Assembly (NCBI RefSeq): GCF_030512175.1
Contig: NZ_JAULBL010000002.1
Coordinates: 2,292,149 to 2,356,148 of the forward strand
Direction of reading: 5' to 3'
DNA: 64,000 nt
From: Paeniglutamicibacter sulfureus
GTDB lineage: Bacteria > Actinomycetota > Actinomycetes > Actinomycetales > Micrococcaceae
Part shown: positions 22,522-42,847 of the stretch, piece after piece
Numbering within the stretch: the first letter of the stretch is position 1
Layout: the number at the start of each line of letters is the position of its first letter
The notes under the pieces: generated by a model
Database searches by the model: none
Told to the model about the DNA's origin: nothing
What the model saw: the letters and a program-made list of their open reading frames with translations, nothing else
Translations under genes and position numbers: made by a program

Positions 22522-25500
22522 GTGAAGCAAACACCCAAGACCTTGGCCGGCATGGTCCAGGACCTGTACGGAAAGCGCATCCACCGGAAGGACGCCCAAC
22601 GGAAATCCCGGACGCTCAAGGGCTCGCTTTCCCTGGCTGTCAGCCAAGAGGGGCGTTTCCTCCGGGTACATGCGGCCACGAGCCAAAGACCGCTGGGATT
22701 GAGTGTGCTTCACGGCAAGACCGTCATCGAACGCATTGCGTTTGACTCCATGGAAGATGCGGGAGCGGCTGGCTATCTCTCCACCGGGGCGATCGACCTC
22801 GCATCCCTGTGCGGGCAATGGAACGCACTGGCACCCGTGCTGGTGGGGGAGCCCGAGGACGATTTCGACGGCGTCGACGGCGTCGTACGTGCTTGCCTCG
22901 AATATGAAGGCGAAATCGGTGCACTTCCACTCGGAGTGGCTGCGGTCGAGCTTGATGCAGTCGAGGGAACACTGACACGGGCCGAGGTCAATGAGTTGGT
23001 GGATGAAGGTTCGATCGAGGTGGGGGAACCGGTGCGGTTCCATCGCGTGCTGGGTCGCGCAGCCCGTACCGACCTGAACTCCCTCGTAGGTCATGAAGCT
23101 CCCGACGGACTCGCCCGCCCCTATGTCAACAAGCGCGGCGAGCTCGTGATCGCCATGAACCGCGAGATCCGGCACAGTGTCAAGCTGCGCACCGACGCCA
23201 TTTCCGTTGTCGCGGGAAACCTGAAACTTTCCGGAGTCGCCTACAGCCGGAGTTCGCGTCTGTCATCCGCACGGCTCTTGGTCCTGGGTCGGCGAAGCGG
23301 CCAGGAATTCACCGGTGCCGTTGATCTTCGGTTGATGCAGGAGCAGACCAGCCTGCGCAACGGATTCGGCAGGTACAGGTGGGCAGCGGAAGCCGCCCTT
23401 GCCGATGTTGACTGGGACACGATCGAGTCCACGGACAACTTTGACCTCTACCTCGAGTTTGGCATCCAGGGGGTTGACGAGCCGAAACGTGTGCGCGTGG
23501 CCAGGACCCCATATGCGATACGCGCCACCACGCGCGCCGGCGACGTCACCCGCGACGGCAAGACCCTGGTCGTCAATCCCTATTACACCTTCAAGGGCAA
23601 GGCCACGTCCCTGATTCTTGAGGTGCTGGACGAGTCCTCGTTCAAAGTGCTCCAGGACTTCAGCCCCGCCAAGCACCTGTTGGCCAGCCGTGGACGGAAG
23701 CCCGTCTGGCTCATCGGGGAACTGCCCTACAAGGCCCAGGACAATGGTTACCATTTCTTCCGTTATGTCAGGGAAAGCCACCCGGAAGTAGATGCCTACT
23801 ACGTCATAGACAAGGCATCGCCGGAATTCGAAAACGTCTCCCGGCTTGGGAATGTCATCGGCCACCAGTCGAAGGAACATTTCGAGATCGCGCTGGCCGC
23901 GGACCGCATCGTTGGATCGCACCACCCCGATTATCTGTACCCCACGCGCCATCCGTCTTTCCTCGCGAAGTCACGCGCCGGGAAGGTCTTCCTGCAGCAC
24001 GGCGTCATGGGAACCAAATGGATGGTTCCAAACTACGGAAAGAAGTCGGCCGGATTCCAGACCGATCTGTTCTGTGTTTCTTCCGAGCGTGAGAAATCCT
24101 ATATCGTCAAGGACTTCGGCTACGATCCAGGGGAGGTGGTGGTGACGGGCCTGCCGCGCTTCGATGCACTCTTCGACAGGGACGTACCTGTCCGACCCCG
24201 ACAGGTCCTGATCATTCCCACCTGGCGGGACTGGCTGCAAGACGAAGGATCGTTCCTCGAGTCCGACTACTTCCAGAAGTGGAACGAATTCCTGCATGAT
24301 CCCGCCCTGGCCGGCCTGGTGCGTGAACACGAACTCGAACTCGTCTTCTGCCTGCACCCCAACATGCAGCACCTGAGGTCATTCTTCACCGGAGCGCCGG
24401 TCCGTATCGTCGGGCAGGGCGAAGTCGATGTCCAGTTCCTCATGAAGCAAAGCGCCGCCATGGTCACCGACTACTCGAGCGTTGGCTTCGACTTTGGATT
24501 CCTGGACAAGCCCGTCCACTACTTCCAGTTCGACCGCGACCGGTTCCTGGGTAAATTGGGATCGCACCTGGACCTCGATCGCGAGTTGCCGGGGCGGATC
24601 TCGTTTACGCGTGAAGCACTGTTGGAATCCCTGGCTTTAACGGTAGGGCGCAGGATGCAGATGGAAACCACCTATCATGACCGCGCATCCAAATTCATCG
24701 TGGCCCGTGACCGCGGCCATTCCTCCCGTGTCTTCGAGGCCATCCGGGACATGCACGTGCCGCTGGTTGACATCAAGGATCCTCGGGAAAGCGAGTTGGC
24801 CGATCGCGCACAAGAACGCTTCCGGAACAGCCGCTTCTATTTCCCGCTAATGAAGCGGTTGCAGGTGCTCGCCGGCAAGTTGCCCATGGACAATGACCTC
24901 GTCGTCTTTGAATCCGGTCTAGGCAAGCAGTACGCGGACTCCCCGCGCTACATCTACGAGGAAATGCTCCGGCGCGGGGACACGCGCAAGAAGGTCTGGA
25001 TTTACTCGGGAACCCATGGGTTCACCGACCCAAACACCACGACCGTCAAGCGCCTGTCGCCGGCATACTTCTGGAATCTGGCCCGCGCCAAATACTGGGT
25101 GGTGAACCAAAACCTGCCCTCCTACATGACGCGGCGCAAGAATGGCGTCTATGTCCAGACGTGGCACGGTACCCCGCTCAAGCGGATGCTGAACGACATC
25201 GAGGACATCCACGGCCGCGACGACGGCTACCTAGACCGGGTGACGCGTGCCATCGGCCAGTGGACCCACCTCCTGTCGCCCAGCCCCTACGCGACCGAGG
25301 CGATGCGTAGCGCCTTTGCATACACGGGACCCGTCCTGGAACTGGGGTACCCGCGCAACGACCCCTTGCTGCGACCTGAGTCGCGGGTGCGGGCGCAGGA
25401 AGTCAAGACCACCCTGGGGATCCCCGAGGGCCACAAGGTCGTGCTCTATGCGCCAACGTTCCGTGACGATGCCAGCAACGGGAAGGGACGGTTTACCTTT

Positions 25501-26037
25501 GAGCTGCCCTTCGACCTCGAGGCATTTGACGAACGCTTTGGGGAGGACACGGTGCTGTTGCTGCGGATGCACGTGCTGGTCAGTTCCGGGCTCCGGATTC
25601 CGGAGGAGCTGCGAGGGAGGATCGTTGATGTTTCGGCCTATCCGGAGATCCAGGACCTGTACCTCGCCAGCGATGTCCTGATAACCGACTACTCCTCGGT
25701 CTTCTTTGATTTCGCCCTCCTGCGCAGGCCAATCCTCTTCTTCGCTTACGACCTTGAGAACTACCGCGACAACCTGCGCGGCTTCTACATGGACTACGAA
25801 AAGGAACTCCCGGGGCCGATCGTCACCGACGAGGACCAGCTGTGGGCGGCACTCGGGAGTGCACTGGACGGAGAACTGGGGCAGACCGGTCCCAGCGACG
25901 AATTCATCTCCAGGTTTGCTCCCCATGACGACGGAGAATCTGCCGGCAGGGTTGTCGATGAAATTTTCGGCACGGGCCAGCCTGTGACGCAACGCGCGTT
26001 CCTCAATGGTTTTGGCTCCCGTCGCAAACCGCGCTAG
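22522..26037 (+). CDS. large tandem CDP-glycerol glycerophosphotransferase-like protein
   Basis: This 1,171-residue protein carries two glycerophosphotransferase-type domains. Domain one spans about residues 393-740 with VFLQHGVMGTKWM near 489 and VTDYSSVGFDFGF near 650. Domain two spans about 793-1120 with YVQTWHGTPLKRM near 876 and ITDYSSVFFDFAL near 1052. The first ~390 residues are unrecognised. Typical TagF has one such domain, so this looks like a fusion of two transferases that might alternate units or both prime and extend. The start is GTG 22522 after AAAGG. The stop codon overlaps the -10 box of the next transcription unit. Confidence 0.86.
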   Translation: MKQTPKTLAGMVQDLYGKRIHRKDAQRKSRTLKGSLSLAVSQEGRFLRVHAATSQRPLGLSVLHGKTVIERIAFDSMEDAGAAGYLSTGAIDLASLCGQWNALAPVLVGEPEDDFDGVDGVVRACLEYEGEIGALPLGVAAVELDAVEGTLTRAEVNELVDEGSIEVGEPVRFHRVLGRAARTDLNSLVGHEAPDGLARPYVNKRGELVIAMNREIRHSVKLRTDAISVVAGNLKLSGVAYSRSSRLSSARLLVLGRRSGQEFTGAVDLRLMQEQTSLRNGFGRYRWAAEAALADVDWDTIESTDNFDLYLEFGIQGVDEPKRVRVARTPYAIRATTRAGDVTRDGKTLVVNPYYTFKGKATSLILEVLDESSFKVLQDFSPAKHLLASRGRKPVWLIGELPYKAQDNGYHFFRYVRESHPEVDAYYVIDKASPEFENVSRLGNVIGHQSKEHFEIALAADRIVGSHHPDYLYPTRHPSFLAKSRAGKVFLQHGVMGTKWMVPNYGKKSAGFQTDLFCVSSEREKSYIVKDFGYDPGEVVVTGLPRFDALFDRDVPVRPRQVLIIPTWRDWLQDEGSFLESDYFQKWNEFLHDPALAGLVREHELELVFCLHPNMQHLRSFFTGAPVRIVGQGEVDVQFLMKQSAAMVTDYSSVGFDFGFLDKPVHYFQFDRDRFLGKLGSHLDLDRELPGRISFTREALLESLALTVGRRMQMETTYHDRASKFIVARDRGHSSRVFEAIRDMHVPLVDIKDPRESELADRAQERFRNSRFYFPLMKRLQVLAGKLPMDNDLVVFESGLGKQYADSPRYIYEEMLRRGDTRKKVWIYSGTHGFTDPNTTTVKRLSPAYFWNLARAKYWVVNQNLPSYMTRRKNGVYVQTWHGTPLKRMLNDIEDIHGRDDGYLDRVTRAIGQWTHLLSPSPYATEAMRSAFAYTGPVLELGYPRNDPLLRPESRVRAQEVKTTLGIPEGHKVVLYAPTFRDDASNGKGRFTFELPFDLEAFDERFGEDTVLLLRMHVLVSSGLRIPEELRGRIVDVSAYPEIQDLYLASDVLITDYSSVFFDFALLRRPILFFAYDLENYRDNLRGFYMDYEKELPGPIVTDEDQLWAALGSALDGELGQTGPSDEFISRFAPHDDGESAGRVVDEIFGTGQPVTQRAFLNGFGSRRKPR

Positions 26038-26072: not shown

Positions 26073-26693
26073 ATTAGCGAAAAGCGTTCAGATCGTTCGT
26101 CGTCACACGACATCGATCGCAGTTCGCCCCTGGTTTTCTTAACCAAGGATCTTGGGCGAAGCCCCGGAAACATGACGACCCTTGATGAGGTGGTCGCCGC
26201 ACCAGCTGAAATCGGTGTGGCACTCATCGGAGTCCGTGAAGGATCGGAAGTTGATCTGGATCTGCGATTCGAAGCCGTGCACGAGGGCATTCTGGTCTCC
26301 GGAACCGCCACTGTTGAAATCAGCGGTGAATGCGGACGGTGCTTGGAAGCCATGGCGTACGACTTCGATGCCGACATTCAAGAACTTTTCTACTACGAGG
26401 GCTTACACGAGTTCACCGAAGAAGAAGAGCTCGACCAGTACCAGGTTGTAGATGATCGTATTGATCTCGAACCGGTGCTCCGGAATGCAGTGGTGACCGC
26501 ACTGCCGTTCCAACCGGTATGCCGGGAAGACTGTGCAGGGCTTTGCTCCGAATGTGGAAAAAGCCTGAATGAGGATCCTGAGCATCACCATGAGGTCTTG
26601 GATCCTCGTTGGGCAGCGCTTGCCGGGCTGACCGACATCGTCGCAGAGGACGCGACACAGAGTACACATTCAGTCGAGAGAGAAGAGAAGTAG
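26073..26693 (+). CDS. yceD: YceD/DUF177 family protein, probably starting at ATT
   Basis: DUF177 proteins precede rpmF in most bacteria and are linked to ribosome or 23S rRNA metabolism. The product shows [12 protein letters not shown], a C-terminal [13 protein letters not shown] cluster and the family ending [11 protein letters not shown]. The first in-frame ATG (26172) would remove [17 protein letters not shown], a conserved N-terminal segment of the family (the LGRxPG motif). No ATG, GTG or TTG lies between that segment and the promoter. The best upstream start is ATT at 26073, 5 bp after AGGAG, giving 206 residues. ATC at 26070 is an alternative. Family call is firm; the start is inferred. 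Confidence 0.85.
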
Positions 26694-26695
26694 CC

Positions 26696-26899
26696 GTGGC
26701 TGTCCCGAAGAGGAAGATGTCCCGCTCAAACACTCGCGCCCGTCGCGCCCAGTGGAAGGCAACCGCGCCTACCCTGGTGAAGACCATGGAAAATGGCCGC
26801 GTCACCTACAGCCTGCCGCACCAGGCAAAGGTTGTTACGGATTCCGCAGGCACCGAGCTGTTCCTTGAATACAAGGGTCGCAAGGTCGCAGACGCGTAA
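26696..26899 (+). CDS. rpmF: 50S ribosomal protein L32
   Basis: The 67-residue protein begins [20 protein letters not shown], the hallmark of L32. It has no cysteine pairs, so it is the zinc-free form of the protein. The start is GTG 26696, preceded by a purine-rich AGAAGAGAAG, and only 2 bp follow the yceD stop. Its stop is 9 bp before rnc. Confidence 0.98.
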
Positions 26900-26908
26900 G
26901 TCTGTCTG

Positions 26909-27610
26909 ATGCCTTCAACAGAAGAGCTTTTGAAGCGTCTCGGGGTCACTATTGACCCCGAGACGCTTCGTCTTGCCCTCACACACCGTTCCTACGCCTA
27001 CGAGCATGGTGGCATCCCCACCAATGAACGTCTGGAATTCCTGGGAGACTCCGTGCTCGGCTATGCCGTCACCGACCACCTCTACAAGAATTACCCGGAC
27101 CTGCCCGAAGGCGACCTGGCCAAGCGACGTTCCGCCGTTGTCAGTACCCGTGCCCTGGCTGGTATCGCCCGTTCCCTTGGCGTAGGGGAATTCATTCTCT
27201 TGGGTCAAGGTGAAATCCTGACCAATGGCAAGGACAAGTCGTCCATTCTTGCTGACACGATGGAATCCCTCATCGGTGCGACCTTCCTGAACCACGGGAT
27301 TGAAGTGGCCAGGCAAATGGTCATGCGCCTCATCCTGCCGTTGTTGCACGACGTGGACGTCCTGGGCGCCGGGACCGACTGGAAAACCGCTATCCAGGAA
27401 ATCGCCGCAGCCAAGAAGCTCGGCGCCATCGAGTACCGTGTCACGGGCTCCGGCCCCGACCACGCACGTACCTACATCGCCGTGCTCCATATTGGCGGCA
27501 CACCGTACGGGCAGGGAACCGGTCCCTCCAAGAAGGAAGCCGAGCAGGAATCAGCGGCAGTGACCTGGAAATTGGTCGGCCCGCAGAATGACTCGGCCAA
27601 GGCCAACTAA
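26909..27610 (+). CDS. rnc: ribonuclease III
   Basis: RNase III cuts double-stranded RNA and processes rRNA precursors. The 233-residue protein has the catalytic signature NERLEFLGDSVLG (about residues 40-52), the second acidic site in ADTMESLIGATF (about 115-126), and a C-terminal double-stranded RNA-binding domain from about residue 155 (DWKTAIQEIAAAKK, GTGPSKKEAEQESA). Codons about 9-20 form a perfect 16-bp hairpin in the mRNA, listed separately; it could be the enzyme's own substrate. The ATG follows rpmF by 9 bp with only a weak ribosome site. Confidence 0.97.
   Translation: MPSTEELLKRLGVTIDPETLRLALTHRSYAYEHGGIPTNERLEFLGDSVLGYAVTDHLYKNYPDLPEGDLAKRRSAVVSTRALAGIARSLGVGEFILLGQGEILTNGKDKSSILADTMESLIGATFLNHGIEVARQMVMRLILPLLHDVDVLGAGTDWKTAIQEIAAAKKLGAIEYRVTGSGPDHARTYIAVLHIGGTPYGQGTGPSKKEAEQESAAVTWKLVGPQNDSAKAN
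26932..26969 (+). promoter_or_regulatory. perfect 16-bp intragenic hairpin, candidate RNase III autoregulatory site
   Basis: Left arm GAAGCGTCTCGGGGTC (26932-26947), loop ACTATT, right arm GACCCCGAGACGCTTC (26954-26969). All 16 pairs match and one more U-G pair can form outside. It begins 23 nt after the rnc start codon. RNase III is known to limit its own expression by cutting stem-loops in its own message in several bacteria. That this hairpin does so here is inference. Confidence 0.6.
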
Positions 27611-27613
27611 GCA

Positions 27614-28531
27614 ATGCCTGAACTTCCGGAAGTCGAGGTTGTTCGGCGAGGTCTGGAGGACTGGGTCGTTGGTCGGACCGTCGAAGCGGTCCAGGTCGTA
27701 GATCCACGATCGGTTCGCCGACATCTCGGAGGACCGGCTGATTTCACCGCGAGCCTAACCAGGACCGGCATTGGCGCGGCGGTGCGCCGCGGAAAGTTCC
27801 TGTGGTTGCTGCTCGACGGATTGCCAAGGCCCAGCGCGTTGGTGGCCCATCTGGGCATGAGCGGACAGCTGTTGGTGGAGGAGCCCGCCGCGCCGGACGA
27901 GAAGCACCTGAAGGTGCGCCTTGAACTGTCTCCAGAGGCCAACAAGCCGAACCAACTGCGGTTCATCGACCAAAGAATCTTTGGCGGCATGTTTCTCTCG
28001 CCCCTGGTGCCCACCGGTGACCAATTTCCCGGAGGCCAAGGTTCCGAGGCACCGTGGATTCCAGAGGCCGCGGCTCACATCGCCCGGGATGTCCTTGATC
28101 CCGCTTCGACCCCCGAGGTCCTCTATCAAGCCCTGCGCAAGAAGAATACTCAAGTCAAGCGCGCAATCCTGGACCAGCAGGTCATTTCCGGTGTCGGGAA
28201 CATCTACGCGGACGAAGCACTTTGGGCCGCCAAGCTGCACGGTCTGCGCTCCACCGCCACGATCCGCCGCCCCGATGTAATACGACTCCACACTGCACTC
28301 GTGGACGTCATGGGCCGTGCGCTTGTTGCCGGCGGAACAAGCTTCGACGCGCTTTATGTCAACGTCAACGGAGCTTCCGGTTACTTTGACAGGTCGCTGA
28401 ACGCCTACGGCCGCGAAGGCCGGGACTGCCAGCGTTGTGCCGAGGAGGGCGTGCTGTCGGTGATCAGGCGCGATCCCTTCATGGGACGCTCCTCCTACAG
28501 TTGTCCCAGGTGCCAGCGCAAGCCCCGCTAG
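27614..28531 (+). CDS. mutM: formamidopyrimidine-DNA glycosylase
   Basis: MutM removes 8-oxoguanine and formamidopyrimidines from DNA and nicks the abasic site. The mature protein starts with the catalytic [13 protein letters not shown] (Pro2 nucleophile, Glu3). It has [20 protein letters not shown] region features, the helix-two-turn-helix [15 protein letters not shown], and a C-terminal zinc finger with CQRC and CPRC. At 305 residues the length is normal. It follows rnc by 3 bp and ends 28 bp before the convergent serine hydrolase. Confidence 0.96.
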
Positions 28532-40788: not shown

Positions 40789-40812
40789 ACACCGCGCGTA
40801 CGACAGCTGACT

Positions 40813-40847
40813 AAGGCGGCCACGGATTTTTCTTCCGTGGCCGCCTT
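40813..40847 (+). terminator. intrinsic terminator after the acyltransferase gene
   Basis: A perfect 14-bp stem (AAGGCGGCCACGGA and TCCGTGGCCGCCTT) with a 7-nt T-rich loop. It starts 25 bp after the stop at 40788, and its AAGG/CCTT base would give a short T run. It separates the ftsY-acyltransferase unit from the amt operon. Confidence 0.85.
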
Positions 40848-40868
40848 TGCCATGCGGACAAGGTTTCG

Positions 40869-42689: not shown

Positions 42690-42716
42690 CAGAGCCAAAC
42701 GAGGCACAGCATCTCA

Positions 42717-42754
42717 ACGACAGAGCCCTAACCATTTGGTTGGGGCTCTGTCGT
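42717..42754 (+). terminator. intrinsic terminator after glnB
   Basis: A 17-bp stem (42717-42733 pairing with 42738-42754, one T-G wobble) with loop ATTT, followed by TATT. It sits 28 bp past the glnB stop. The gene beyond it is convergent, so the hairpin may act for both strands. Confidence 0.85.
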
Positions 42755-42847
42755 TATTGGCGGAGCATGCCATTCTCAGACCGGCTCTACGGGCAAACAC
42801 CGTCTCGCCGTTCCGCTAGACCGGGCGGGCCGCTGTGCTGGTCGGTT

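Follow-up and report, generated by a model that had tools for sequence, protein, structure and literature searches.

The hairpin analysed here lies at the start of rnc, among genes of the plus strand of a 64-kb window (the whole stretch of Paeniglutamicibacter sulfureus DNA that was studied, 64,000 nucleotides). The features of the locus are the following:

26172..26693, + strand: YceD-like gene, upstream of rpmF (the match is weak, with 22.6 bits where the curated cut-off is 192)
26696..26899, + strand: rpmF, ribosomal protein L32, ending 9 nt before rnc
26909..27610, + strand: rnc, ribonuclease III, 233 aa (TIGR02191), host gene of the hairpin and its likely regulator
26921..26974, + strand: strong synonymous-conservation footprint in Micrococcaceae, wider than the stem (codons 5-22 except 8, 12, 14 and 15)
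26932..26948, + strand: 5' arm of the rnc hairpin, running from the third position of codon 8 to the first position of codon 14
26942..26944, + strand: Gly-12 codon; its third base is the partner of the first base in codon 17 (Pro here, 26957-26959), and this covarying pair changes an amino acid
26949..26952, + strand: apical loop of the hairpin, 4 nt (6 nt in relatives without the innermost pair)
26953..26969, + strand: 3' arm of the rnc hairpin, running from the third position of codon 15 to the first position of codon 21
27614..28531, + strand: mutM/fpg DNA glycosylase, starting 3 nt after rnc

The rnc product matches the TIGR02191 equivalog with 219.9 bits (cut-off 166.25), and the solved chain that matches it best in sequence, 2a11_A, bears the name Ribonuclease III. 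Identity of the RNase III protein was 87-95% in the best 6 of 80 loci, which belong to three Paeniglutamicibacter and three Arthrobacter sp. The genes rpmF, rnc and mutM are co-oriented, with gaps of 9 and 3 nt, and probably form one transcript. Upstream of this operon there is a large open frame of 1171 aa (22522-26037), whose product presumably resembles a teichoic-acid-type glycosyltransferase.

An inverted-repeat search of the window (at least 13 nt, distance of at most 60) listed 14 repeats, and the only one with 100% complementarity was that spanning codons 8-21 of rnc, with arms of 17 nt and 4 nt between them. This is the same perfect hairpin that a sequence-only reading of the region had described as 16 bp with a 6-nt loop; the innermost A-T pair had been omitted there, in such a way that the stem actually has 17 pairs and the loop 4 nt. 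Its position had been given correctly, as the rnc ATG is at 26909 and the stem begins 23 nt downstream, at 26932. Folding of 101 nt containing the hairpin added a basal U-G pair, with a predicted energy of -45.3 kcal/mol and a z of -6.87, and none of 200 shuffled 101-nt controls matched this fold. The hairpin was also predicted in a context of 341 nt. Two other repeats from the search, at 42716-42755 and 40808-40852 (both of 19 nt, 95% and 89% complementary), are possibly terminators.

Such a long duplex within codons had been judged very unlikely by chance, and codon randomisation bore this out. For this, the protein was kept and the codons were drawn at the frequencies found in five of the window's reading frames; 17 Watson-Crick pairs appeared in none of 200,000 randomisations, and 16 pairs in 19 of them. 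The native hairpin fold reached -40.8, compared with a mean of -20.4 for codon-randomised versions (sd 4.2; lowest of 2000, -34.8). The gene was also scanned in non-overlapping windows of 66 nt against codon-permuted controls, using 25 of the 94 Micrococcaceae core genes (loci that contain some species twice) and all 113 others, and only the first rnc window consistently folds better than the controls. In the core genes its mean z was -4.61, with 25/25 sampled genes below -3, and the averages of the other eight windows in these 25 genes ranged from -0.91 to +0.21. Elsewhere, the mean z of the first window was -3.98 in 28 divergent Micrococcaceae genes, -2.34 in 47 genes of the order and -0.88 in 38 of the class, the averages of later windows being between -0.94 and +0.35 over all groups, with a few single genes below -3. 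As the first-window z was -2 or higher in 28 of the 38 class relatives, the hairpin site is not general.

The distribution of the hairpin was followed with a covariance model built from 61 distinct sequences. It matched 194 of 197 Micrococcaceae genomes and all 32 genera, the location inside rnc being confirmed for the loci read individually, so loss of the stem in close relatives, which the sequence-only reading had named as evidence against a feedback site, was not found. The three genomes without a match (G079, G082 and G173, with completeness of 82, 94 and 71) had no RNase III match either, and assembly gaps are therefore the most likely reason. In the order, the model matched 131 of 396 genomes and 44 of 110 genera, with 35 of the 131 being Micrococcaceae. 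In the class, 37 of 296 genomes gave matches, some of them away from rnc, and for this reason the in-register hairpin is not claimed class-wide. Within its own genome, the model found 8 matches at E values up to 10, two of which are the rnc hairpin on both strands, and the 13-mer of the stem is confined to the two hairpin arms; the next match (L099 1501-1545) is a different hairpin that separates two converging reading frames and probably serves as a terminator in both directions.

At the level of individual loci, six scanned ones without the anchor were left out (L162, L163, L182, L192, L204 and L208). The 122 Micrococcaceae loci, in which some species appear twice, kept 16 core pairs in 105 cases, 15 in 6, 14 in 10 and 12 in 1. 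Conservation of 15-16 of the 16 core pairs was seen in 11 of 28 readable order loci (some chosen for their model match), in 15 of 20 loci fetched for a model match and in 1 of 38 class loci. The in-register stem therefore characterises the Micrococcaceae and some parts of the order, but not the class. A set of 154 loci was also used, made up of the 122 Micrococcaceae loci, whose choice did not depend on pairing, 13 order loci chosen with their pairing already known and 19 order loci retrieved as model matches, so its counts lean towards pairing; the remaining 42 loci constitute the outside set. In the 154-locus set, codon entropy was 0.31 bits over codons 8-22 versus 1.20 from codon 26 on. Synonymous conservation in Micrococcaceae also reaches codons outside the stem, which does not explain them, namely codons 5-7 (GAA GAG CTT, 26921-26931) and 21-22 (CGT CTT, 26970-26974); the latter segment might fold with the 3' arm into a small alternative hairpin.

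Changes at the stem pairs were reconstructed by parsimony over 122 Micrococcaceae tips, on a tree made from protein columns downstream of the hairpin, with the hairpin codons excluded and one locus (L240) left out for a one-base offset relative to the anchor. Double changes that keep pairing numbered 38 (36 to Watson-Crick and 2 to G-U), versus 0-11 in slid registers and a mean of 6.2 with a maximum of 20 in 200 re-dealt partner sets, these counts being approximate because a single reconstruction was made, on a quickly built tree in which some branches are weak. Of the other changes, 9 were doubles that break pairing; 36 single changes gave G-U, 16 gave a Watson-Crick pair and 18 a mismatch. 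Paired synonymous changes in relatives had been put forward as a check on the hairpin; compensation was indeed found, but it is not confined to synonymous positions, as amino acids change too. In the 154-locus set, partly selected for pairing, 59 pairing-keeping doubles were counted against 4-16 in slid registers and a re-dealt maximum of 29. Over the 61 distinct sequences, 97.3% of the cells pair and the covariation score was 0.145, versus 0.080 for shuffles and no more than 0.067 for slid registers. Double changes occurred at 3 pairs in these sequences and there were 13 further pair types, neither number being above those of shuffles, as 113 and 157 of 500 shuffles reach them.

The cells that are not Watson-Crick tell which strand is selected. 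Among 1936 stem cells, 1759 are Watson-Crick, 122 G-U, 8 A-C and 47 other, and this excess of G-U over A-C indicates selection on the sense RNA. A sense RNA duplex inside rnc is therefore under selection. An overlapping antisense gene was considered and rejected: over 160 codons, the in-register antisense frame stays open in 53 of the 122 Micrococcaceae genes and neither of the other two does so in any gene, so an antisense gene does not explain the conservation. In the sense direction, a stop interrupts frame +1 within 150 nt in 114 of the 122 genes, and frame +2 within the same distance in 113.

The arms pair in codon register, in such a way that codon stands against codon and the effect of pairing on the protein can be followed. 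Among 89 distinct Micrococcaceae sequences, the third base of the Gly-12 codon predicts residue 17 in 85, with 41 expected if both were independent: GGG goes with Pro in 22/23, GGC with Ala in 17/18, GGA with Ser in 8/10 and GGT with Ala or Thr in 38/38, the GGT-Ala combination corresponding to a U-G pair. The rule holds in 111/121 of the wider, 154-locus set and in 9/42 of the loci outside it, a contrast sharpened by the way in which loci were selected. Codons 10 and 19 behave similarly in the wider set, where CGT-ACG (Arg-Thr) was found 82 times, AAG-CTT (Lys-Leu) 13, AGT-ACT (Ser-Thr) 8, CAT-ATG (His-Met) and CAG-CTG (Gln-Leu) 3 each and AGC-GCT (Ser-Ala) 2, with other pairs, some of them mismatched, in 10/121. 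Since these swaps change the protein, pairing seems to have chosen the residues. Selection on the RNA duplex thus seems to have steered a tolerant N-terminal stretch; the association is observed among related, non-independent sequences, and the direction of cause is our interpretation.

We consider it likely that the hairpin is a built-in autogenous control site for RNase III, as the sequence-only reading had suggested. Of that suggestion, the conserved and covarying stem selected as sense RNA stands firmly, and cleavage by RNase III is what we infer, because the duplex lies in the enzyme's own mRNA, because of its length, and because in-gene self-cleavage is reported for S. coelicolor and S. 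aureus. The duplex has 17 bp, or 18 with the basal U-G pair, slightly below the minimum quoted for RNase III, for which about two helical turns are asked: about 20 bp in the available text of PMC5775266 and 22 nt in that of PMC5371410. In the mechanism that we propose, a duplex of 16-18 bp is predicted to form in the rnc message, and RNase III would bind and cut it when the free enzyme exceeds its uptake by rRNA precursors and other substrates. The cut would destroy the rnc reading frame and start decay of the cistron, so that rnc output would fall. With the site inside rnc, the feedback would act on rnc and the closely packed neighbours would be spared. Selection for the RNA duplex may in this way have fixed codons and also steered the N-terminal amino acids of RNase III. 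Mimicry of the 16S processing stem was tried and rejected, the longest shared word being 7 nt, in the flanks of one of two 16S loci whose gene ends were estimated.

Other explanations were weighed against control by cleavage. The hairpin might act on translation, slowing early ribosomes or binding another factor and tuning rnc output without cleavage, and a very stable stem that starts 23 nt after the ATG would suit such a role. We regard this as unlikely, as a block close to the start should fix its distance to the start, but the stem lies at variable distances from the rpmF stop (23-107 nt in Micrococcaceae and 78-114 nt in family f37, described below) and it is the position relative to the protein motif that is fixed; the argument is indirect, as it takes the rpmF stop for its reference point, and by the same token the lower ribosome access to rnc once envisaged for this stem looks weaker. 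Somewhat less probable still is that RNase III cuts the stem as a processing step of the rpmF-rnc-mutM transcript, one that sets stoichiometry, with much L32 and little RNase III, and has no feedback meaning. The tight packing of the genes agrees with it, and all 122 Micrococcaceae loci examined have an rpmF-like motif whose end lies 23-107 nt upstream of the stem, but a cut inside rnc destroys rnc and makes its output depend on RNase III activity, so this idea is hard to separate from feedback.

A DNA-level palindrome, i.e., a protein site, a cruciform or a recombination element, is very improbable: the arms do form a perfect inverted repeat in DNA, but an element acting as DNA or as antisense would lack the bias of the 177 non-Watson-Crick cells, with 122 sense G-U versus 8 A-C. 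To a transcription attenuator or terminator, for which the strong G+C-rich stem could speak, we give an equally small chance, as the stem is followed by no T tract and sits inside a conserved reading frame, and the terminator and promoter scan found nothing at the hairpin. In Rfam 15, the region 26600-27300 gave 7 matches, all below gathering (best, 19.3 bits), and six relatives gave none. Coincidence, in which a conserved protein motif and G+C-rich codon use happen to be self-complementary, is conceivable for Leu-Gly-Val and Asp-Pro-Glu, which can have complementary codons, but is practically discarded by the 0/200,000 randomisations and by compensatory changes that in part alter amino acids.

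Autogenous control by RNase III remains our preferred reading, and hairpins at the rnc start were also seen in other families. In family f37, which we infer to be Streptomyces-like, a long bulged hairpin was found in 10/10 genomes read at the same rnc protein position as in Micrococcaceae, but it uses another base-pair register and its stem is longer; 59 of 72 columns of its region are invariant (L205, L229, L230 and L254-L260). Strong folds at the rnc start were also observed in family f45 (7 loci; L221 and L261-L266), with extra residues in the loop region, and in 2/4 loci of family f47 (L197 and L273). A broader proposal, to which we give even chances, is that of an ancient actinomycete feedback operator written codon against codon in the rnc frame, whose mRNA duplex dictated N-terminal residues and which persisted as a hairpin although families differ in its register and sequence by replacement, among them Streptomyces-like families, for which self-cleavage is reported. 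As part of that same evenly balanced proposal, the third base of the Gly codon would set Pro, Ala, Ser or Thr, and the codon pairs for Arg-Thr, Ser-Thr, His-Met, Gln-Leu and Lys-Leu would swap together. The rnc hairpin, if it does control RNase III, would be a feedback site inside codons, conserved family-wide and traceable in other families, and an unusually clear case of mRNA base pairing dictating protein residues. Self-control of RNase III is known in a few species, at unrelated sites.

The autoregulation of absB/rnc in S. coelicolor was reportedly described by Xu, Huang and Cohen in 2008. According to the accessible part of PMC10126417, the polycistronic rnc transcript of S. coelicolor is itself a target of RNase III, which cuts it in the loops of two stem-loops, one within the rnc cistron and another upstream of rnc, and the mRNA rises in an rnc mutant; the rpmF-rnc operon appears in the excerpts of PMC5775266, and absB/rnc autoregulation is also treated in PMC2936110, as far as its available text goes. 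From these partial sources, S. coelicolor shares with our locus the rpmF-rnc arrangement and a stem-loop inside rnc, self-cleavage being reported in S. coelicolor, and differs in its second, upstream site and in the cuts within loops. The f37 hairpin, also inside rnc, may correspond to the reported in-rnc site of S. coelicolor. In S. aureus, RNase III cuts inside the rnc coding sequence at U+296 in a negative feedback, in a stem-loop called conserved among staphylococci (PMC3386247, in its available portion). This resembles the proposal made here in that the site is inside the enzyme's own coding sequence, but, going by that portion, it consists of a long irregular helix at U+296, unlike the codon-register stem at codons 8-21. 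In E. coli, RNase III cleaves rncO, a structure within the message that encodes the enzyme, and thereby starts decay of that message, as stated in sections of PMC5371410 and PMC8708148 that name Bardwell 1989 and Matsunaga 1996; as given there, rncO lies in the 5' untranslated region of an rnc-era message, whereas the hairpin studied here occupies codons 8-21, with rpmF ending 9 nt before rnc. Among the matches listed in our literature search, whose coverage leaves out most subscription journals, no paper dealt with an rnc hairpin in Arthrobacter or its relatives.
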